A stretch of DNA of 33,431 bases. Origin: Desulfobacterales bacterium (lineage in GTDB: Bacteria > Desulfobacterota > Desulfobacteria > Desulfobacterales > JAAELO01). The notes beneath the pieces were generated by a model. It ran no database searches. It had not been told where the DNA came from and was given only the letters and a program-made list of their open reading frames with translations. The position numbers and the translations under genes were made by a program. Every line of letters starts with the position of its first letter. Within the stretch, counting starts at the first letter, position 1. The DNA is taken from contig JAAELO010000526.1 in assembly GCA_024226555.1 (NCBI GenBank), positions 1-33,431 on the forward strand, in the 5' to 3' direction. Shown here piece after piece: positions 2,006-33,431 of this stretch.

Positions 2006-2033
2006 TTGACAAATCTTAAAAATTGATTATCTT
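2006..2033 (+). promoter_or_regulatory. promoter P2 (TTGACA-N16-TATCTT)
   Basis: TTGACA at 2006-2011 and TATCTT at 2028-2033, spacer 16 nt, preceded by CCCCC. It directly abuts the T-run that ends the small RNA. The predicted start is near 2040. It drives the structured leader and the methyltransferase gene at 2239. Confidence 0.75.
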
Positions 2034-2040
2034 TTAATAT

Positions 2041-2238
2041 GATGACAAATTAAAAAAGGGATGTAAAACAATGCAGAGTTATCCTCTCTGCCTTCAACAA
2101 ATATTATGAAAAAGTGTAAAAATATATATCAAAAAAATAATAATAAATATACTTTCGGATTGACCTCCTAAAGTACCAGCTTCCTGTTTTTCCTTACACT
2201 TTTTAACAGGGGGCTGGTTTAAATAAAAAGTGGGTAGT
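2041..2238 (+). promoter_or_regulatory. structured leader E1 with a hairpin whose loop pairs upstream
   Basis: About 200 nt of untranslated leader between P2 and the methyltransferase start. Three pairings are visible. GCAGAG (2073-2078) pairs with CTCTGC (2086-2091). A 14-bp hairpin joins 2175-2188 to 2205-2218, with two U.G pairs in the middle. The 11 bases TTACACTTTTT (2194-2204) in its 16-nt loop are exactly complementary to AAAAAGTGTAA (2109-2119). The 3' half of that loop can instead pair with AAAAAGTG (2225-2232) just before the start codon. A pseudoknot or two-state switch controlling translation is possible. The remaining bases hold no gene. Confidence 0.6.
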
Positions 2239-2904
2239 ATGATAAATTGGTACAACATGGACTGCATGGACTTCATGAGAGATGTCCCGGATAATAAATA
2301 TGATTTAGCAATAGTTGACCCACCTTATGGGATTGGATGGGATGGGGACAACTTAAAAGAATATAACTCCACCTCTTGTGAAAGTTGGAAACATAGAAAA
2401 CCAAAAGGTTATACTGAGAAAAAATGGGATTCAGAAAAACCACCGATTGAATATTTTGAAGATTTGCAAAGAATATCTAAAAATCAGATTATATGGGGTG
2501 GAAATTATTTTACAAATATGTTGGAAGTTACTGGTTCTTGGATTGTGTGGGATAAACAAGTAGTAATGCCCACATTATCAGATGGGGAACTCGCTTGGTG
2601 TTCAATAAATAATTCTGTTAAAATTGCAAGATTTTTATGGGCTGGATATTTAAAATGCGAAAAAACAAACAGAATCCACCCAACCCAAAAACCAGTTGAA
2701 TTATATAGATGGCTCTTAAACAACTATGCAAAACCAGGAGATAAAATAATAGATACACATGGAGGTTCTGGAAGTATAGCACTTGCTTGTGATGTAGAAG
2801 GCTTTGATTTAGATATTATTGAACTGGACAAAGAGTATTTTGAAGATGCAAAGAAAAGGTTTGAGATACATAAAGAACAATTAACTTTATTTGACAATGT
2901 ATAA
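2239..2904 (+). CDS. DNA adenine-type methyltransferase (beta class), second copy of the function
   Basis: A compact methyltransferase of 221 residues. Motif IV DPPYG is at 27-31, HPTQKP at 147-152, and the SAM-binding motif I (DTHGGSGS) at 172-179. The order IV before I is again beta class. DPPY is the usual motif of N6-adenine enzymes. The target-recognition part between the motifs is short (about 110 residues), as in many phage methylases. ATG 2239 is preferred; an in-frame GTG at 2230 would add three residues, and neither has a strong SD site. It is the first gene behind promoter P2 and leader E1, so its synthesis is probably regulated. It shares little sequence with the methyltransferase at 736 beyond the motifs. 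Confidence 0.85.
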   Translation: MINWYNMDCMDFMRDVPDNKYDLAIVDPPYGIGWDGDNLKEYNSTSCESWKHRKPKGYTEKKWDSEKPPIEYFEDLQRISKNQIIWGGNYFTNMLEVTGSWIVWDKQVVMPTLSDGELAWCSINNSVKIARFLWAGYLKCEKTNRIHPTQKPVELYRWLLNNYAKPGDKIIDTHGGSGSIALACDVEGFDLDIIELDKEYFEDAKKRFEIHKEQLTLFDNV

Positions 2905-3325
2905 AAAAACACAATACAACAACCTCTTAAATGCCTATGATACTTCATTGGTTGCCGATGTTTCATACGGAACTATAAGAAAGTATATGCGAAAAGGGAA
3001 TATCCCTTATTTCATGCAACCACAAACAAAAAGGACAATATATTATATATACATCCTTTCTAAAAGAGTGCAAAGAATGATTGAGAAATATAAAAAGATG
3101 CACCAGTACCAAGATAAACATGTAGAGAATTACAAATACAAGGTTAATAAATTGGCAGAGAAGGATATAACCTTGCTGGATGCAAAAAACAGGCTTATTT
3201 TTGAGATTAGACACTATCTTGAACATCACAGCAAAGAGGAGGTGTATAACAAATACAAAGAAAAGATAGGATGCTTGTTTGAGAACGCAGAGGATGTATT
3301 GAATTATTATGGATTAGGAGGATAA
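2897..3325 (+). CDS. hypothetical protein with possible N-terminal helix-turn-helix
   Basis: Not recognised. The 142-residue product is basic, rich in Lys and Tyr, and mostly helical by composition. The first 45 residues (TSLVADVSYGTIRKYMRKGN) look like a small helix-turn-helix or excisionase-like fold in which a recognition helix follows a SYGT turn. The rest (about 60-130) is a charged helix. ATG 2897 overlaps the end of the methyltransferase by 8 nt without a clear SD site, which suggests translational coupling. A DNA-binding role is an inference. Confidence 0.6.
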   Translation: MYKKTQYNNLLNAYDTSLVADVSYGTIRKYMRKGNIPYFMQPQTKRTIYYIYILSKRVQRMIEKYKKMHQYQDKHVENYKYKVNKLAEKDITLLDAKNRLIFEIRHYLEHHSKEEVYNKYKEKIGCLFENAEDVLNYYGLGG

Positions 3326-3760
3326 ATGAAAAACTGTAAAGAATGTAATTTCAATTTCTTCCAAAGGTTAATAGCTTGTAGGAATTGTAGAGGGAAAAAA
3401 GAAAATCAAAGTTGTATAAAATTAAAAAAATATGATAAATTGAAAGAAGAAATAAAAAAGAAAGATAAATTCAACTGGTTCAAATTAAAAAATCCTGATA
3501 GATTGGACAGGTGGAGTATAGGGCATTTTGGCTTAGGAATGATCGCAGGGATGTTGGCTGTTGTAAATCCATATATTGGCTTCACAGCGTTTAATTTAAT
3601 CCTTTTATGGGAGTTTATTGAATACTGGTTGTCACAAAAAGTGGATGCTGAGAAATACTGGCTTGATCCTGCAGGAATATCTTTAACTGACATGTGCCTT
3701 GATTGTTTAGGTTTTGCAGTTGTACTTATTTTCTCAGGTGTTTTTAATTGGAGGGTTTGA
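3326..3760 (+). CDS. membrane protein with N-terminal zinc-binding cysteines
   Basis: The protein has 144 residues. CxxC pairs at C4/C7 and C18/C21 suggest a small zinc knuckle. A basic linker follows, then hydrophobic segments at about 65-80, 84-99 and 124-141. The pattern GHFGLG, WEFIE and a later TDMxxDxxG resembles small integral membrane proteins found widely in bacteria; no function is assigned. AGGAGG stands 5 nt before the ATG, a strong site. The last 15 codons are duplicated about 330 bp downstream. Two or three membrane spans next to lysis-type genes make a holin-like role conceivable but unproven. Confidence 0.65.
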   Translation: MKNCKECNFNFFQRLIACRNCRGKKENQSCIKLKKYDKLKEEIKKKDKFNWFKLKNPDRLDRWSIGHFGLGMIAGMLAVVNPYIGFTAFNLILLWEFIEYWLSQKVDAEKYWLDPAGISLTDMCLDCLGFAVVLIFSGVFNWRV

Positions 3761-3763
3761 ATG
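3713..3763 (+). repeat. imperfect 50-bp direct repeat, copy A
   Basis: It matches 4042-4091 over about 50 bases with few differences. It encodes the C-terminal FAVVLIFSGVF plus the ribosome-binding site of the next gene. See the second copy for the consequence. Confidence 0.85.
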
Positions 3764-3940
3764 AAAAGAAATAAAATTGCAGCAGCAAGAGCAACAATAG
3801 AAATAATGGAAAGGATAGCAAAAGCGAAGGTAGCAGCAGCAATAATAAAAATAATAAATGATTTTATGATACCTAAAACTAATGATAAAATTAAAATTAA
3901 AGATGAGATATACACAATAATAAAGGCAGAAAAACATTGA
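3761..3940 (+). CDS. small basic helical protein, 59 aa, unknown function
   Basis: Preceded by GGAGGG at 8 nt. The product is rich in Ala, Ile and Lys and would form an amphipathic helix over about 5-35; the second half is mixed charged. No motif is recognised. The reverse strand has a long open frame here, but it is a by-product of the Ala/Ile-rich codons. The gene fits the pattern of short, separately initiated accessory genes in this stretch. Confidence 0.55.
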   Translation: MKRNKIAAARATIEIMERIAKAKVAAAIIKIINDFMIPKTNDKIKIKDEIYTIIKAEKH

Positions 3941-4089
3941 GAATAACTAAAAATTTATATATACAGTTTGGAATATCAGGCTGGATTAAGCTATATAAGA
4001 TTGGGGCTGTTTGGAGAAATTTAAACGAATATCCATTATGCTTTGCAGTTGTTCTTATTTTCTCAGGTGTTTTTAAGTGGAGGTTTTGA
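3937..4089 (+). CDS. short ORF carrying a duplicated membrane-protein tail (possible remnant)
   Basis: An open frame of 50 codons starting at TTG 3937, with only a weak purine-rich site before it. Its C-terminus CFAVVLIFSGVFKWRF repeats the end of the membrane protein at 3326 almost exactly. The first 30 residues are unlike that protein. It may be a real single-span membrane peptide, or debris from a duplication that mainly delivered the ribosome-binding cassette for the gene at 4089. Its TGA overlaps that ATG by one base. Confidence 0.35.
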   Translation: MRITKNLYIQFGISGWIKLYKIGAVWRNLNEYPLCFAVVLIFSGVFKWRF

Positions 4090-4091
4090 TG
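4042..4091 (+). repeat. imperfect 50-bp direct repeat, copy B
   Basis: Second copy of the sequence at 3713-3763, ending in GGAGGTTTTGATG, which serves as SD site plus start codon. The same 13 bases occur exactly at 4289-4301 and 4645-4657, so the right end of this repeat is a recurring initiation cassette. Confidence 0.85.
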
Positions 4092-4283
4092 GATGAATAT
4101 ATAAAAAAAGATATTCCAAAAGAAATTAAACAGGAGGGCGTGTGTTATGTATCACGACCAAAACCAGATGAACTCAACGGCACAACTTCTTGTAATAACT
4201 TTATAGGGAAAGACCAACTCCAATTAGGGTGGTTGGATAGATGCCCTTATTGCGGAAGAAAATTAAAAATGATATGGAATTAA
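4089..4283 (+). CDS. zinc-knuckle mini-protein with CPYCG motif, 64 aa
   Basis: ATG 4089 stands 5 nt after GGAGG in the repeated cassette; a GTG at 4077 would put the SD site inside the gene and is rejected. The C-terminal half contains RCPYCGRKLK, a half zinc ribbon, with upstream cysteines (C19 and C35 by my count) that could complete the site. CPYCGRKL-ending mini-proteins are common in phages, where most are of unknown function. Confidence 0.65.
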   Translation: MDEYIKKDIPKEIKQEGVCYVSRPKPDELNGTTSCNNFIGKDQLQLGWLDRCPYCGRKLKMIWN

Positions 4284-4298
4284 AAAGTGGAGGTTTTG

Positions 4299-4460
4299 AT
4301 GGTTTTAAAAGAATTAAATAATATTTGCGAAGGACTATATGAAGGGGATATTTTAACAATTAATAACATTAAATATAAAATTGTAAATACTGAATGTAGT
4401 TTTAAAAGTTATGAAAAGAAAGCTGAAATTGTTAAAGTTTATAAATTAGAGAGGGTTTAG
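4299..4460 (+). CDS. small protein of unknown function, 53 aa
   Basis: The start is set by the third use of GGAGGTTTTGATG (4289-4301). The product has the alternating pattern of a small beta-barrel (GDILTINNIKYKIV followed by a second strand pair ending EIVKVYKLE). No family is recognised; the GDI..IN..KYKIV pattern resembles small OB- or SH3-like folds. Confidence 0.55.
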   Translation: MVLKELNNICEGLYEGDILTINNIKYKIVNTECSFKSYEKKAEIVKVYKLERV

Positions 4461-4461
4461 A

Positions 4462-4662
4462 ATGAAGATAATAAAACTTAAAACAACAGATATTGAAACA
4501 GAAGAAGTGCCAACAGAATTTGTAAATTGGGTATGCCCAGAATGTGGGAAGATACAAAGAACAATAGAATGGAACATAGAGAATGAGGAATTGTGGTGTT
4601 TAAAATGTAAAATAGCTTTTAAAATTTCATGGGAAAACATAAACGGAGGTTTTGATGACTGA
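4462..4662 (+). CDS. zinc-ribbon protein, 66 aa
   Basis: Two CxxC knuckles, CPECG at about 25-29 and CLKC at 46-49, separated by a WNIENEELW strand pair, give a classic zinc-ribbon layout. The ATG follows a GAGAGGG site. The end of the gene contains the GGAGG site of the lytic transglycosylase, so the two are probably translated together. Function is unknown. Confidence 0.65.
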   Translation: MKIIKLKTTDIETEEVPTEFVNWVCPECGKIQRTIEWNIENEELWCLKCKIAFKISWENINGGFDD

Positions 4663-5212
4663 AAAGCAACATACTTTTAATTTTATTACAGTAGCTATAT
4701 TATTTATTATTTTAACTATTGTATTGAATATTCAATCTAATAGACAACCCACAACTAACAAGACAAAAACAATCATAGATACAATATATATTCCTACTAC
4801 AACCTTTGACACAATCCAAGCGAAAAACTGGCTGTATTCCAAAGCAGGCTCAGAAAGAGATAGTATTATAATTGCTGCTGTATATCATTCAGACAGCTTA
4901 ATTAATCCAGTAACGAGAATATTAGCTATATGTTATTTAGAAACAAGATTCAAACAAGGGATCATAAACAGTGCTTCAGGTGCTAAAGGTTTAATGCAAG
5001 TTCTCAGATCTTCAGCAATAGCCTGTGGATTGAATTATGACAGCCTTAATAATATTGACTATGAGATATTAGCAGGGTGTAGAGTAATGAGAGTGCATTA
5101 TAGCTTCAGCAAGACCTTAAATGGTGCTATTAAAGGATATTCAGGAGGAGCTTATTCAATATGGAAGTTAGCAGATACAGAAAGGAATAGAGTTTGGGGG
5201 TTTTTGTTTTGA
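4655..5212 (+). CDS. membrane-anchored lytic transglycosylase (SLT fold)
   Basis: The 185-residue protein has one N-terminal membrane segment (about 8-26), a linker with DTI repeats, and an SLT-type domain from about 85. The catalytic glutamate is E96 in CYLETRFKQG, followed by ASGAKGLMQV (107-116), the family's second motif, and AIKGYSGG (158-165), a version of the usual AYNaG motif. It would cleave the MurNAc-GlcNAc glycosidic bond from the outer face of the inner membrane. A role at lysis or cell exit is likely; it sits in the accessory region, far from the amidase. ATG 4655 has GGAGG 6 nt upstream. Confidence 0.8.
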   Translation: MTEKQHTFNFITVAILFIILTIVLNIQSNRQPTTNKTKTIIDTIYIPTTTFDTIQAKNWLYSKAGSERDSIIIAAVYHSDSLINPVTRILAICYLETRFKQGIINSASGAKGLMQVLRSSAIACGLNYDSLNNIDYEILAGCRVMRVHYSFSKTLNGAIKGYSGGAYSIWKLADTERNRVWGFLF

Positions 5213-5610
5213 GAAAAGAATTAAGAATAAAAGTTTGGGAGAAATACAATAAGCATTGTTCTTATTGTGGAAAGACATTAGCATATAAAGAAATGCAAGT
5301 TGATCATTTATTCCCAAAACATTTAACGCATTTATTAGAAAATAATAAATTAAAAAAGTTATTAAACATTGACATTAGTAACATTAATAGTTTTACAAAT
5401 TTAATGCCAAGTTGCAGAAGGTGCAACTATTACAAAGGAGGGATGCAATTAGAAGATTATAGAAAATATATGTTATCTTTGCATAGTAGAATTAAAAAAG
5501 ATTATAAATTTAAAGTTGCTATAGACTACAAAATACTAATTGTTAGTAAATTTGATGGTAAATTTTATTTTGAAAGAACAAAAGATGAATGGAGGTTTTT
5601 GTTTAAATGA
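5209..5610 (+). CDS. HNH endonuclease
   Basis: The 133-residue protein has the zinc-stabilised HNH layout. CSYCG is at 17-21, VDHLFPK at 31-37 with H33 as the likely general base, NLMPSCRRCNYYKG holds N64 and the second CxxC (C69/C72), and the rest is C-terminal strands. I chose TTG 5209, which overlaps the transglycosylase stop and lies 8 nt after GGGGG; an earlier TTG at 5194 would overlap more and waste that site. It is a free-standing nuclease, probably a homing-type element or a DNA-processing enzyme. It is not next to the terminase genes, so a packaging role is less likely. Confidence 0.8.
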   Translation: MRKELRIKVWEKYNKHCSYCGKTLAYKEMQVDHLFPKHLTHLLENNKLKKLLNIDISNINSFTNLMPSCRRCNYYKGGMQLEDYRKYMLSLHSRIKKDYKFKVAIDYKILIVSKFDGKFYFERTKDEWRFLFK

Positions 5611-6527
5611 AAATTGGTTTGTTAGATTTAGATAATTTGTATAAGAAAATGAATAGATCTAAAATCTTTCCAAATATTCCATTGATGAAAATATCACAGT
5701 ATCATAAAAATAAAAAAGACAATGTTGAATTTGTCAATAATTTTTATGAGTATGATATAATTTATAAATCTAAAATATTTACATTTACAACTGAAGAAAA
5801 ATATTGTTTACAAGCAGATAAAATAATTCAAGGGGGAAGTGGTTATGATCTAAAAAACAAACTTCCTGAATATATTTATAATCAATACCCAGATTATGAT
5901 TTATATAATATTAAAAATATTGCTTATGGAGAATTGACAAAGGGTTGTCCAAGAAATTGTAGTTTTTGTATTGTTTCAGAAAAGGATGGGAAGAAATCAA
6001 AGAAAGTGGCAGATTTAGAAAACTTTTGGAAAGGTCAAAAAGAAATAATATTATTAGATAGCAACTTACTTGCTTGTAAAGAACATAGAGAAGATTTATT
6101 GAAACAACTAATAAAAAGTAAGGCAAGTGTTAAATTTTCACAGGGTATAGACATAAGACTAATGACAGACAAACTATGTAAATTGTTCAATCAAATAAAA
6201 ATAAAAAGAATATATTTCGCATGGGATGATCCAAATGATTTATTTACAAAATCAAAATTGTTATATTTTAAAGACAAATTAAATTTACATTATAGCAAAA
6301 AAGCAGTATATGTATTAACAAATTTCAATTCTAAATTTGAAGAAGATTTATATAGGGTTAAGTGGTTGAAGGAAAATAATTATGATCCCTATGTTATGAT
6401 TTATAACAAAGATAAATTAGACAAAGGGCATATATTAAGAAAGCTACAAAGATATGTAAATAATAAATTTATATTTAGAAAAGCAAAAAGTTTTAAAGAA
6501 TATTCAACAACCCCCTTGACAAAATGA
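5607..6527 (+). CDS. radical SAM enzyme of unknown substrate
   Basis: The [4Fe-4S]-binding CxxxCxxC motif is clear: C114, C118 and C121 in TKGCPRNCSFC. The 306-residue protein has an N-terminal region (1-100) resembling the truncated cobalamin-binding-like half found in some radical SAM families (MKIGLLDLDN opening, glycine loop GGSGYDL). The radical SAM barrel follows, with GIDIRLM and AWDDP segments. It would cleave S-adenosylmethionine to a 5'-deoxyadenosyl radical. Substrate is not identifiable; base or tRNA modification and peptide modification are all possible. ATG 5607 overlaps the HNH gene. The last codons (PLTK-stop) contain the -35 box of promoter P3. Confidence 0.8.
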   Translation: MKIGLLDLDNLYKKMNRSKIFPNIPLMKISQYHKNKKDNVEFVNNFYEYDIIYKSKIFTFTTEEKYCLQADKIIQGGSGYDLKNKLPEYIYNQYPDYDLYNIKNIAYGELTKGCPRNCSFCIVSEKDGKKSKKVADLENFWKGQKEIILLDSNLLACKEHREDLLKQLIKSKASVKFSQGIDIRLMTDKLCKLFNQIKIKRIYFAWDDPNDLFTKSKLLYFKDKLNLHYSKKAVYVLTNFNSKFEEDLYRVKWLKENNYDPYVMIYNKDKLDKGHILRKLQRYVNNKFIFRKAKSFKEYSTTPLTK

Positions 6528-6543
6528 AAAAAGTCGTTATCTT
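6516..6543 (+). promoter_or_regulatory. promoter P3 (TTGACA-N16-TATCTT)
   Basis: TTGACA at 6516-6521 and TATCTT at 6538-6543, spacer 16 nt, preceded by CCCCC exactly as in P2. The -35 box encodes the last residues of the radical SAM gene. The predicted start is near 6550. It drives leader E2 and the replication module. Confidence 0.8.
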
Positions 6544-6549
6544 ATAGAG

Positions 6550-6692
6550 TGTATGGATAAATTAAAAAACATAAAAAGTCAAATCACAAAACAAATATAT
6601 ATTAAGCATACTTAATCCCTATCAGTTTTTTAATCTTTGGTTGACTGCCTATGTTTTTTTAACTGGTAGGGGTTAAGCTGTAGAGGTGAATT
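6550..6692 (+). promoter_or_regulatory. structured leader E2 with a 17-bp hairpin whose loop pairs upstream
   Basis: A 17-bp hairpin joins 6611-6627 to 6661-6677 without a mismatch (two U.G pairs). Its 33-nt loop holds TTGACT (6641-6646) and TATGTTTTTT (6650-6659), exactly complementary to AGTCAA (6577-6582) and AAAAAACATA (6564-6573) upstream, in the correct antiparallel order. This repeats the layout of leader E1. The hairpin ends 6 nt before the GAGGTG site of the gene at 6693, so folding could gate translation. A 20-codon frame (6553-6615) starts close to the transcript's 5' end without an SD site. Confidence 0.65.
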
Positions 6693-6956
6693 ATGATTTA
6701 TTGCCCAAAGGGACATGATATGACAGAGGTTATGAAATCAACATTATATCCAAAATATTTTTATTGTCATCATTGTAAAGAAATTTATGTCACAGCCTTA
6801 ACAAAGATTGTTAAAGATGTGATGGATAGAGAGTATTGTACAGATAGATATGGAGAATTAGTAAGGCTTGCAGAGATAATAAAAGCAAAAAAAAGAGTTA
6901 AAGTAAAAGACCTTGTAAAATTAGGATATTTGGATAAAAGTTATCTTGAAAAATAA
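6693..6956 (+). CDS. zinc-ribbon protein, first gene of the replication module
   Basis: The 87-residue product has a CPKGH opening (C4, H8) and CHHC at 25-28, together a likely four-ligand zinc site. A basic helical half follows (about 50-87, RVKVKDLVKLGYLDKSYLEK) that looks like a winged-helix or helix-turn-helix tail. GAGGTG stands 4 nt before the ATG. As the first gene behind P3 and the structured leader, it may be a small regulator of replication or transcription; this is inference. Confidence 0.65.
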   Translation: MIYCPKGHDMTEVMKSTLYPKYFYCHHCKEIYVTALTKIVKDVMDREYCTDRYGELVRLAEIIKAKKRVKVKDLVKLGYLDKSYLEK

Positions 6957-7725
6957 TATCCCATACTATCAACATTATTCAGATGCAGACCAACATCCTA
7001 AATTTAAAATGTTGAGGGTTAAATATGGATGGGCTGGAGAGGGTAAATTTTGGGCTTTAAATAATAGGATTGCTTTAGCTGAAAATTGTTTATTGGATTT
7101 GAGTAAAAAATTTAATATAGCAAGTATAGCAGATGATCTTAATTTTAATGTTGAAGATTTTGAACAATTTATTGAATATTTGATAACTGATTGTGAATTG
7201 ATCCAGCGTAAAAACGGATTTATTACCTCTGATATAATACAAGATAATTATGAGAAAGTAGCTGAAAAGCGGAAAAAGAATGCTTTAAGCTACAAAAAAC
7301 GACATTCAGATAATTTCAGAAACATTCAGACAGCTGAAAGTGAGATTCAGACAGCTGAATTTATACAAAGTAAAGTAAAGAAGAGTAAAGAAAAGAAAAG
7401 TATATTAAATATAGACTTGCTAAAGCAAGTTGTTGATTATCTCAATACTAAATTATCTTCTAAATATAAATACCAATCTAAGAAAACTCAGGACTTGATT
7501 AATGCAAGATTTAAAGAAGGATTTACTTTTGAAGATTTTAAATATGTTATTGATATTAAGTATAAAGAATGGAGTAGTGATCCTAAACAATATATGTATT
7601 TAAGACCGGAAACTCTTTTTAGTAATAAATTTGAAGGTTATAGGAATCAGAAAGAGAAGGCTGAAGCTAAAAAAATAAATTGGTTGGAAGATTATGCAAT
7701 AGAGGAGGATAAAAATGATAAATGA
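6946..7725 (+). CDS. replication initiation protein (DUF4373-like N-terminus, Phg_2220_C-type C-terminus)
   Basis: A protein of 259 residues starting at TTG 6946, overlapping the previous gene by 11 nt. The N-terminus (about 5-110; YYQHYSDADQHPKF then KYGWAGEGKFWAL) matches the pattern of phage and plasmid initiators with a winged-helix domain. A Lys-rich linker follows. The C-terminal domain at about 158-235 (VVDYLN, LINARFKEGF, LRPETLF at 219-225) fits the conserved phage C-terminal family PF09524, usually found on DnaD/lambda-O-like initiators. It would bind an origin and recruit host helicase. The origin itself is not identified; it may lie within this gene, as in lambda. Confidence 0.75.
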   Translation: MKNNIPYYQHYSDADQHPKFKMLRVKYGWAGEGKFWALNNRIALAENCLLDLSKKFNIASIADDLNFNVEDFEQFIEYLITDCELIQRKNGFITSDIIQDNYEKVAEKRKKNALSYKKRHSDNFRNIQTAESEIQTAEFIQSKVKKSKEKKSILNIDLLKQVVDYLNTKLSSKYKYQSKKTQDLINARFKEGFTFEDFKYVIDIKYKEWSSDPKQYMYLRPETLFSNKFEGYRNQKEKAEAKKINWLEDYAIEEDKNDK

Positions 7726-32297: not shown

Positions 32298-32846
32298 ATG
32301 AAAAAAACAGTATCATATCTTGTTATTTTTGCAATTATTTTATTTTTTTGCTTACTCCTTTATAACACACTATCAAGAAATAAAAGTGATTTTAGCAAGA
32401 TAGATACTTTAACAATCACTATAACTCAAAAAGATACAATCCATATTTCAGATACTTTAATAATTACTGAAACTGATACAATAAACAATATAGTATTCCA
32501 TTCCTTCAACTATGAAGATAGCAATATTTACATCAGAGGGTCAATAGAGTGTCTATCTAATAAAACTAATATAAGTTATTACATAAAACCAATAACTGTT
32601 GACGTGGTCGCTCTGACACCTGATAGTATTGAAATAACAACAAATGAGAATTATAATATCGATGTTAGTGGTGGTTTGACTATTCAAAGAGTTTATAGAT
32701 CAGGTTTTTTTGCAAGTGCTGGTGTTGGTTGGAATAAAAATCAATATTCTCCAGTTCTAAATTTAGGTTATAATTTTGGCAAGATTGGAATAAGTGCAGG
32801 AATAACTAAAGATATTTTGACAGGGAGTTTGATTTATTATTTTTAA
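32298..32846 (+). CDS. membrane-anchored protein with DTI/DTL repeats and outer-membrane-like end
   Basis: One N-terminal membrane span (about 5-24), then a stretch of IDTLTI, KDTIHI, SDTLII and TDTINN units at about 33-65. A long beta region ends in alternating aromatic/small strands (GYNFGKIGISAG and a terminal Phe), as outer-membrane barrels do. The DTI-type repeats echo the linker of the lytic transglycosylase at 4655. It may span the periplasm at lysis or alter the surface against superinfection. No family is recognised. Confidence 0.55.
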   Translation: MKKTVSYLVIFAIILFFCLLLYNTLSRNKSDFSKIDTLTITITQKDTIHISDTLIITETDTINNIVFHSFNYEDSNIYIRGSIECLSNKTNISYYIKPITVDVVALTPDSIEITTNENYNIDVSGGLTIQRVYRSGFFASAGVGWNKNQYSPVLNLGYNFGKIGISAGITKDILTGSLIYYF

Positions 32847-32999: not shown

Positions 33000-33337
33000 T
33001 TGATTATAAATTTATAATCGCTTTAGCTGTCCAATCCAGCATTTTCGTTGCCGGACTTTGGAAAACAACATCTATACAAGCAGAAAAGCAGAAAGTTGCT
33101 AATAACAGGATAGTAGATTTAGAAAACATAGATAAAGAACTTGTTAAAAAAATAGATTATGTGAGAGAACAACACTTAAAGTGTGATTATAGAGCTTCCG
33201 ATTTTGATAACTTAAAACTGAATAATATGCGAGTGATTGAATCTATGCAAAAGACAATTGATGACTTCCAGCCAAAAATGGTAAAAATAGAAAAAATGCT
33301 GGTAAGGTTAGAAACCTTAATAAATGAGAGGACATAA
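32996..33337 (+). CDS. TM plus coiled-coil protein of the lysis cassette (i-spanin- or holin-like)
   Basis: The 113-residue product has an N-terminal membrane span (about 5-22) and a long coiled coil (about 30-110, with DLENIDKELVKKIDYVREQH). This is the layout of inner-membrane spanins. It sits directly upstream of the amidase in the circular map, sharing a TAATG overlap at 33335-33339. ATG 32996 overlaps the mini-protein stop; an upstream TTG at 32981 is less likely. If the host has an outer membrane, a spanin role is attractive; otherwise it may be a holin partner. The lipoprotein at 13312 could be its distant partner. Confidence 0.6.
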   Translation: MIDYKFIIALAVQSSIFVAGLWKTTSIQAEKQKVANNRIVDLENIDKELVKKIDYVREQHLKCDYRASDFDNLKLNNMRVIESMQKTIDDFQPKMVKIEKMLVRLETLINERT

Positions 33338-33431
33338 TGAATAATTTTGATAAAATAGCAGAAAGTGTAAAAGATGCTAAAAGATTTGATGAATATATAA
33401 TAAGAAATTTAGAAGAATATACCCAAAAAGG
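33291..33431. repeat. 141-bp direct terminal repeat, right copy
   Basis: Identical to bases 1-141. It carries the end of the TM/coiled-coil gene and the start of the amidase gene, and shows how the window closes into a circle. Confidence 0.95.
33337..33431 (+). CDS. 5' end of the amidase gene (partial, continues at 142)
   Basis: The first 95 bases of the amidase gene, cut by the window end. The complete gene is annotated at 47-751. It is the same gene seen twice because of the terminal overlap. Confidence 0.9.
   Translation, partial: MNNFDKIAESVKDAKRFDEYIIRNLEEYTQK

Follow-up and report, generated by a model that had tools for sequence, protein, structure and literature searches.

Two leaders able to form similar H-type pseudoknots precede a DNA methyltransferase gene and a putative replication operon in a phage contig of a Desulfobacterales bin

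This study analyzed a 33,431-nt contig of a Desulfobacterales bacterium (JAAELO010000526.1, assembly GCA_024226555.1; hereafter, the window) and focused on two leaders, E1 and E2, each situated between a promoter match and a gene on the + strand. The ends of the contig form a 141-bp identical direct repeat (1-141 and 33291-33431), and because of this repeat the contig, which is C525 of a 7.7-Mb bin, is probably a complete circular or terminally redundant phage genome of ~33.3 kb. E1 precedes an N6/N4 DNA methyltransferase gene (2239..2904, +; PF01555, phrog_67), and E2 precedes a called gene for an 87-amino-acid (aa) protein (6693..6956, +), which is followed by a replication-initiation-like gene (6946-7725, +; Pfam/PHROGs annotation). 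A preliminary description of the region had attributed one promoter type to both leaders, and near-identical TTGACA-N16-TATCTT consensus matches with CCCCC in front were located at 2006..2033 (E1) and 6516..6543 (E2) on the + strand; transcription of E1 would start near 2041. Sequence identity also placed AAATTAAAAAA in both leaders at the positions given in that description, namely 2047..2057 in E1 and 6559..6569 in E2 (both +), where it overlaps the helix strand S1a introduced below.

Folding revealed that both leaders can form an H-type pseudoknot, in which the loop of a strong hairpin (S2) pairs with an upstream segment (S1). On the + strand of E1, S1a (AAAAAGTGTAA, 2109..2119) pairs over 11 bp with S1b (TTACACTTTTT, 2194..2204), which constitutes the 3' part of the loop of a 14-bp hairpin with the arms S2a (2175..2188) and S2b (2205..2218); the loop segment L2, between S2a and S1b, reads TTTCC. 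On the same strand of E2, S1a (AAAAAACATA, 6564-6573) pairs over 10 bp with TATGTTTTTT (6650-6659), and a further 6 bp are contributed by AGTCAA (6577-6582) and TTGACT (6641-6646); S1b as a whole (6641..6659, pairing with 6564..6582) lies within the loop of a 17-bp hairpin (S2a, 6611..6627; S2b, 6661..6677), in which L2 is TTTTAATCTTTGG. The long hairpins with upstream-pairing loops that had been proposed were thus recovered in both leaders, and the gap between S1b and S2b is 0 nt in E1 and 1 nt in E2. The G-runs noted earlier fall within S2b (GGGGG at 2209-2213; AGGGG at 6668-6672), although their placement directly before the gene was worded loosely, S2b ending 20 nt (E1) and 15 nt (E2) ahead of the ATG. 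The 20-nt stretch in E1 is A+U-rich, and the 15-nt stretch in E2 contains the Shine-Dalgarno-like AGAGGTGA (6682-6689), which lies outside the hairpin.

To place these structures against chance, the geometry was scanned on both strands of the window. E1 ranked first (-42.9) and E2 second (-39.8), and the next candidate reached -28.6. The two S2 stems are also the only hairpins in the window with at least 12 bp, -22 kcal/mol, and loops of 14-40 nt, and both end within ~190 nt of the same promoter type; the terminator scan covered loops of 3-8 nt only and was hence unable to list them. None of the 3000 dinucleotide shuffles of either leader reached its observed score, and of 60 shuffles of the whole window, one reached -40.1 and none contained two such structures, so the shuffling check of the double pairing that had been suggested came out in favor of the leaders. 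As a natural control, we scanned both strands of loci with a G+C content of at most 42%, nearly all of them viral, and found three matches at or below -39.8 in ~1.83 Mb (0 in 349 kb; all three came from 166 viral loci totaling 1.48 Mb), which corresponds to ~0.05 expected in the window versus 2 observed, at a threshold set after E1 and E2 had been seen. The pseudoknot score is not corrected for G+C content, and GC-richer loci reach -40 to -43 (L003, L007, L018, L073, L075, and L078). The notion of two coincidental structures in AT-rich, run-rich intergenic DNA would fit whole-leader RNAfold z-scores of only -2.3 and -2.2, the weak similarity between E1 and E2, and the lack of homologues in the searches made; given the shuffles and the natural control, we regard it as improbable.

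We further examined how much of this excess is due to the hairpin and how much to the upstream pairing. Of 57 strong hairpins from 1.84 Mb of natural DNA, four have an S1 that equals or exceeds that of E2, and none has one matching that of E1; given the hairpin, the probability of S1 was ~0.003 for E1 and 0.02-0.06 for E2. When the loop and the upstream part were shuffled and S1 was required to lie within 1 nt of S2b, an equally stable helix arose in 61 of 20000 shuffles for E1 and 392 of 20000 for E2. For E1, shuffling the upstream part alone yielded such an S1 in 48 of 20000 cases, and S1 at any loop position was reached in 25 of 3000. The hairpins therefore account for most of the surprise, with a further contribution from S1, whereas S1 alone is weaker evidence and moderately unusual. 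A rival explanation is that the hairpins alone matter, with S2 serving as a 5'-leader mRNA stabilizer or a processing site and S1 being a by-product of A- and T-runs. In its favor, S2 by itself is exceptional, the loop-upstream duplex at any position has a p value of 0.024 (E1) and 0.053 (E2), and the four natural hairpins mentioned above equal the S1 of E2. The placement of S1b 0-1 nt from S2b in both leaders and the failure of any natural hairpin to match the S1 of E1 speak against that explanation, which we consider the strongest competitor but somewhat unlikely.

The sequences of the two leaders were then compared. Local alignment of the leaders was matched or exceeded in 81 of 2000 shuffles (the 4% level), and in it the S1a regions are aligned with each other; global alignment revealed no similarity (452 of 2000 shuffles as good), and neither did the hairpins alone in local and global alignment (325 and 1118 of 2000, respectively). 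In the alignment termed A1, 10 of the 11 S1 pairs are kept, three adjacent ones with both bases changed, and sliding one strand by 1-3 columns lowers the pairing from 95% to 41-64%. MAFFT with --auto and L-INS-i gave the same picture of S1, and with --auto, one of 400 shuffles kept at least 10 pairs and none combined this with three double changes; MAFFT did not align the E1 and E2 hairpins on their arms. The double substitutions that keep S1 paired are suggestive but do not amount to proof.

The surroundings of the pseudoknots bear on what they might control. No U-run follows S2b directly, the next letters being TTAAATAAAAAG in E1 and CTGTAGAGG in E2, and because of this, attenuation by termination is unlikely. 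In E1, a competing pairing over the ribosome binding site can form between 2197-2205 and 2224-2232, and in E2, the minimum free energy (MFE) fold contains a competing pairing between 6576-6581 and 6694-6699 that touches the ribosome binding site. Each leader additionally contains a short open reading frame (ORF) starting with ATG on the + strand. That of E1 (2106..2171, 21 codons) holds S1a in codons 2-5 and stops 3 nt before S2a, and that of E2 (6553..6615, 20 codons) holds S1a in codons 4-7 and stops just inside S2a; the E1 frame is a possible leader peptide gene. An ORF of at least 15 codons ending no more than 6 nt from S2a appeared in 134 of 5000 (E1) and 107 of 5000 (E2) shuffles. The competing pairings and the short ORFs point to control of translation initiation.

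On the basis of these findings, we favor the reading that E1 and E2 are cis-acting 5' leader pseudoknots of two early phage transcripts, most likely controlling translation initiation, and assign it a probability of roughly 0.45. The computation itself shows the promoter matches, two possible helices in each leader, their abutting geometry, and the excess over shuffles and natural AT-rich phage DNA. In the proposed mechanism, the S1 and S2 helices would form in the cell, and the continuous S1b-S2b strand would stack S1 on S2. Judging from the geometry, the U-run opening L2 would run parallel to the A-run opening S1a, with the polarity appropriate for U.A-U Hoogsteen triples. Because the competing pairing in each leader would cover the ribosome binding site, the pseudoknot may represent the state in which this site is free. 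A ligand, a protein, or a ribosome on the short upstream ORF would decide between the states; a ribosome that initiates there would prevent S1 from forming. Located shortly before the ribosome binding site in each leader, the pseudoknots would thereby most likely act on translation initiation, that of E1 for the methyltransferase gene and that of E2 for the operon that begins with the 87-aa gene and includes the replication initiator.

Several observations weigh against this reading. The predicted gain in stability from the pseudoknot is marginal: with a penalty of 9.6 kcal/mol, it amounts to -1.6 (E1) and -4.2 kcal/mol (E2) compared with a fold lacking the pseudoknot; at a penalty of 12, the value for E1 becomes +0.8, so the gain is small and dependent on the penalty. 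The S1 helix of E2 is reached in 1110 of 20000 shuffles of the upstream part alone and in 497 of 3000 when any position in the loop is allowed, and the early caution that A/T-runs inflate the odds was accordingly justified for the loop-upstream pairing taken alone. The alternative pairing in E1 would also create a pseudoknot, whose 6-nt linker has to span a stem of 13-14 bp, and may be sterically strained. An ORF of at least 15 codons anywhere in the leader is common in shuffles (3457 of 5000 for E1 and 968 of 5000 for E2), and the short-ORF and alternative-pairing observations were made post hoc. In the comparison of the leaders, 50 of 500 column shuffles of alignment A1 reach the observed values, two sequences allowing little more, and the double substitutions are lost in three further MAFFT alignments, in which the default setting keeps 1, G-INS-i 4, and E-INS-i 2 of the 11 pairs. 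Finally, the genes downstream of E1 and E2 differ, and no third member was found in the Rfam, promoter-guided, motif-guided, and blastn searches detailed below.

The nearest known case in form is the leader of T4 gene 32, an autogenous translational operator. According to PMC3014915, this phage mRNA leader contains a coaxially stacked pseudoknot ahead of the ribosome binding site. The pseudoknot is located 67 nt upstream of the start, is followed by an A+U-rich stretch with UUAA(A) repeats, and controls the gene for a single-stranded DNA-binding protein (PMC3014915). E1 and E2 resemble it in that a pseudoknot is predicted in the leader, likewise ahead of the ribosome binding site, and differ from it in that S2b ends 15-20 nt before the start and that two copies are present in one genome. 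E1, unlike the T4 element, precedes a DNA methyltransferase gene, and the 87-aa protein encoded after E2, which had no match in Pfam or PHROGs (E up to 0.001) and no tblastn match in phage records, could be an unrecognized binding protein. In leader-peptide attenuators, a short ORF shares sequence with one strand of a competing helix, and its stop codon lies at the following hairpin. The similarity is that the short ORFs of E1 and E2 cover S1a and end at the foot of S2; in E1 and E2, by contrast, S2b is not followed by a U-run and no control codons are evident.

The SAM-II and preQ1-II riboswitches are likewise H-type pseudoknots with A/U-rich loop-stem contacts in a 5' leader, as is predicted for E1 and E2, and A-run/U-run pseudoknots occur in known riboswitches. 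E1 and E2 differ from both classes in having no Rfam match, an S2 of 14-17 bp, and a zero-length junction on the S1b-S2b side. A ligand-sensing leader, either a riboswitch or an RNA thermometer, would agree with the position of E1 before a methyltransferase that uses S-adenosylmethionine, with the pseudoknot and its potential for an A/U triplex, and with a promoter class that adjoins hsp20 genes in the same bacterial order. No Rfam 15 family, however, matched the window at the gathering threshold, the 8 and 3 sub-threshold matches under relaxed settings were all to unrelated families, the Shine-Dalgarno-like sequence of E2 lies outside the hairpin, and the gene downstream of E2 has no known link to methyl transfer. 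An RNA thermometer holds the ribosome binding site in a melting-prone stem; in E1 and E2 the ribosome binding site regions are outside S2, and weak alternative pairings cover them in the MFE folds. Ligand sensing is, on this evidence, quite improbable. At the DNA level, S1 and S2 constitute inverted repeats, which could be bound by a phage protein or act in replication, and another phage with the same promoter type (L023) has a repeat-rich noncoding region. A common binding protein predicts the same repeat in both places, whereas the repeats of E1 and E2 differ while the pairing is kept, and each element has a promoter upstream and a gene downstream, all on one strand; such a DNA-level role is therefore highly unlikely.

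The promoter type itself is overrepresented in the window. TTGAC-N17-19-TATCTT occurs five times versus 0.12 expected, and none of 100 shuffles reached five. Four sites on the + strand have TTGACA with a spacer of 16, at 1877 (before the element E0), 2006 (E1), 6516 (E2), and 10758 (before a short leader), and the fifth, at 32544 on the - strand, has a longer spacer; the site at 1877 carries GGGG where the others have CCCC. Only the E1 and E2 promoters among the four are followed by a predicted pseudoknot. In the bacterial order of the bin, CCCCTTGAC-N17-TATCTT was found at 17 sites in 16 of 388 other genomes, compared with one site for the reversed pattern. Pfam assignments of eight proteins encoded downstream, covering 8 of the 17 regions (some of the other nine sites overlap ORFs), comprised five HSP20, one FKBP, one cold-shock, and one Zn_ribbon_8 protein. 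Because HSP20, FKBP, and cold-shock genes are located downstream in genomes of the order, the similarity of the phage promoters to these sites suggests a heat-shock (RpoH-like) class, and the phage possibly uses the host heat-shock sigma factor. Three points argue against this assignment: the motif is missing from the stretch read upstream of the only HSP20 gene detected in the bin, a looser motif is not enriched in the bin outside the phage contig (6 versus 14 control sites), and the delta-proteobacterial sigma-32 consensus CTTGAAA-N11/16-CCCCAT, as given in PMC545781, differs in its -10 part.

Other elements with this promoter type were also noted. E0 (1877-2000) consists of the promoter and a compact structured RNA of ~85-90 nt, which RNAfold folds into a long closing stem with internal hairpins followed by TTTTTTTATTTT (z -2.68; one of 200 shuffles equally stable). 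This resembles an independent phage small RNA that carries a terminator of its own, and its end lies just ahead of the E1 promoter. An antisense role toward E1, E2, or E3 was rejected, the pairing being no better than with mononucleotide shuffles. At locus L068 (1215-1350), the ends of the leader seem by eye to be complementary (AGGCTTGTAG ... CTGCAAGCCT) just before the start codon. The phage L023, with two promoters of this type, contains a region (5150-5870) that has short ORFs only, is rich in TTACATACTTTT / AAAAGTATGTAA repeats and strong hairpins, and is possibly an origin; the fold of 5650-5870 has a z of -4.8.

The search for further members extended to viral contigs, bacterial genomes, and phage records. 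All 47 viral loci retrieved with the promoter probe were scanned (L025, L027, and L044 end 42, 279, and 200 nt after the promoter), and none has an E1/E2-like pseudoknot, totals of -30 to -39.5 occurring in GC-rich loci. The motif probe common to E1 and E2, CCT-N5-TTTTTAAC-N-GG-NN-G, yielded no total better than -24.6 in at least 120 viral loci scanned among the matches listed. The 5'-motif probe gave no member in at least 118 loci among the matches listed, with a best total of -33.6 at L226, a near-perfect palindrome without this promoter that was not accepted as a member. In 389 genomes of the bin's order, blastn with the leaders, with two candidates scored per genome, revealed no third member; at E up to 0.1, E2 matched 141 and E1 201 genomes, and the matches listed besides the window were partial and of at most 45.5 bits. 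In 50,697 phage records, E1 had zero blastn matches, and E2 had 11 to ~40 bases of its linker (best E 0.01 among the 10 listed). Six regions of phage records were scanned, and the best totals, -42.9 (L075) and -43.1 (L078), came from DNA of higher G+C content and were not counted as members. Pseudoknot-like matches at L003 and L005 were rejected since they lie inside ORFs.

The phage stands isolated in the collections searched, because the terminase and portal queries gave no viral contig and only distant matches elsewhere (six phage records for the terminase and three genomes for the portal protein). Its genes include an amidase, two DNA methyltransferases, a radical SAM protein, an HNH endonuclease, the replication initiator, a Gam-like protein, and a terminase. 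For the replication gene, the search of named genomes yielded one relative, in Desulfospira joergensenii, with 59% identity across the first 109 residues; 2 viral loci and, partially and more distantly, 307 phage records were also matched. The methyltransferase search matched 9 viral loci and 712 phage records, and the radical SAM search 5 and 15. A bacteroidote host, first guessed from the promoter, was dropped after the Desulfospira joergensenii match and the finding of promoter sites in the bin's order. The two methyltransferase genes and the radical SAM gene (phrog_9298), at 700-2904 and 5607-6527, lie upstream of the replication operon, and Bacteroides phage BI-TP1 has similar methyltransferase and radical SAM genes close together.

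The preliminary description regarded E1 and E2 as one leader-RNA family. The common promoter type and the pseudoknot topology, with S1b abutting S2b, go beyond the controls and support that part of the view; the third member that a family calls for did not appear. Absence of a third member says little because no close relative of the phage turned up, and for the same reason the expectation of members in related phages was neither borne out nor contradicted. A leader-RNA family of several members is thus not established, and a narrow one is compatible with the negative searches. A bolder version, in which a phage leader-RNA class, with E1 and E2 as its first two members, is defined by a long linkerless pseudoknot with a U.A-U triplex, toggling with the ribosome binding site or a 20-codon ORF, and by host heat-shock-type promoters, strikes us as unlikely; if true, it would tie phage DNA modification and replication genes to the stress and translation state of the host. 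The heat-shock-type promoters would in themselves raise the question of whether the phage ties its early genes to the host stress sigma factor. If functional, a pair of similarly built leader pseudoknots within a single small phage would represent a case with an internal replicate.

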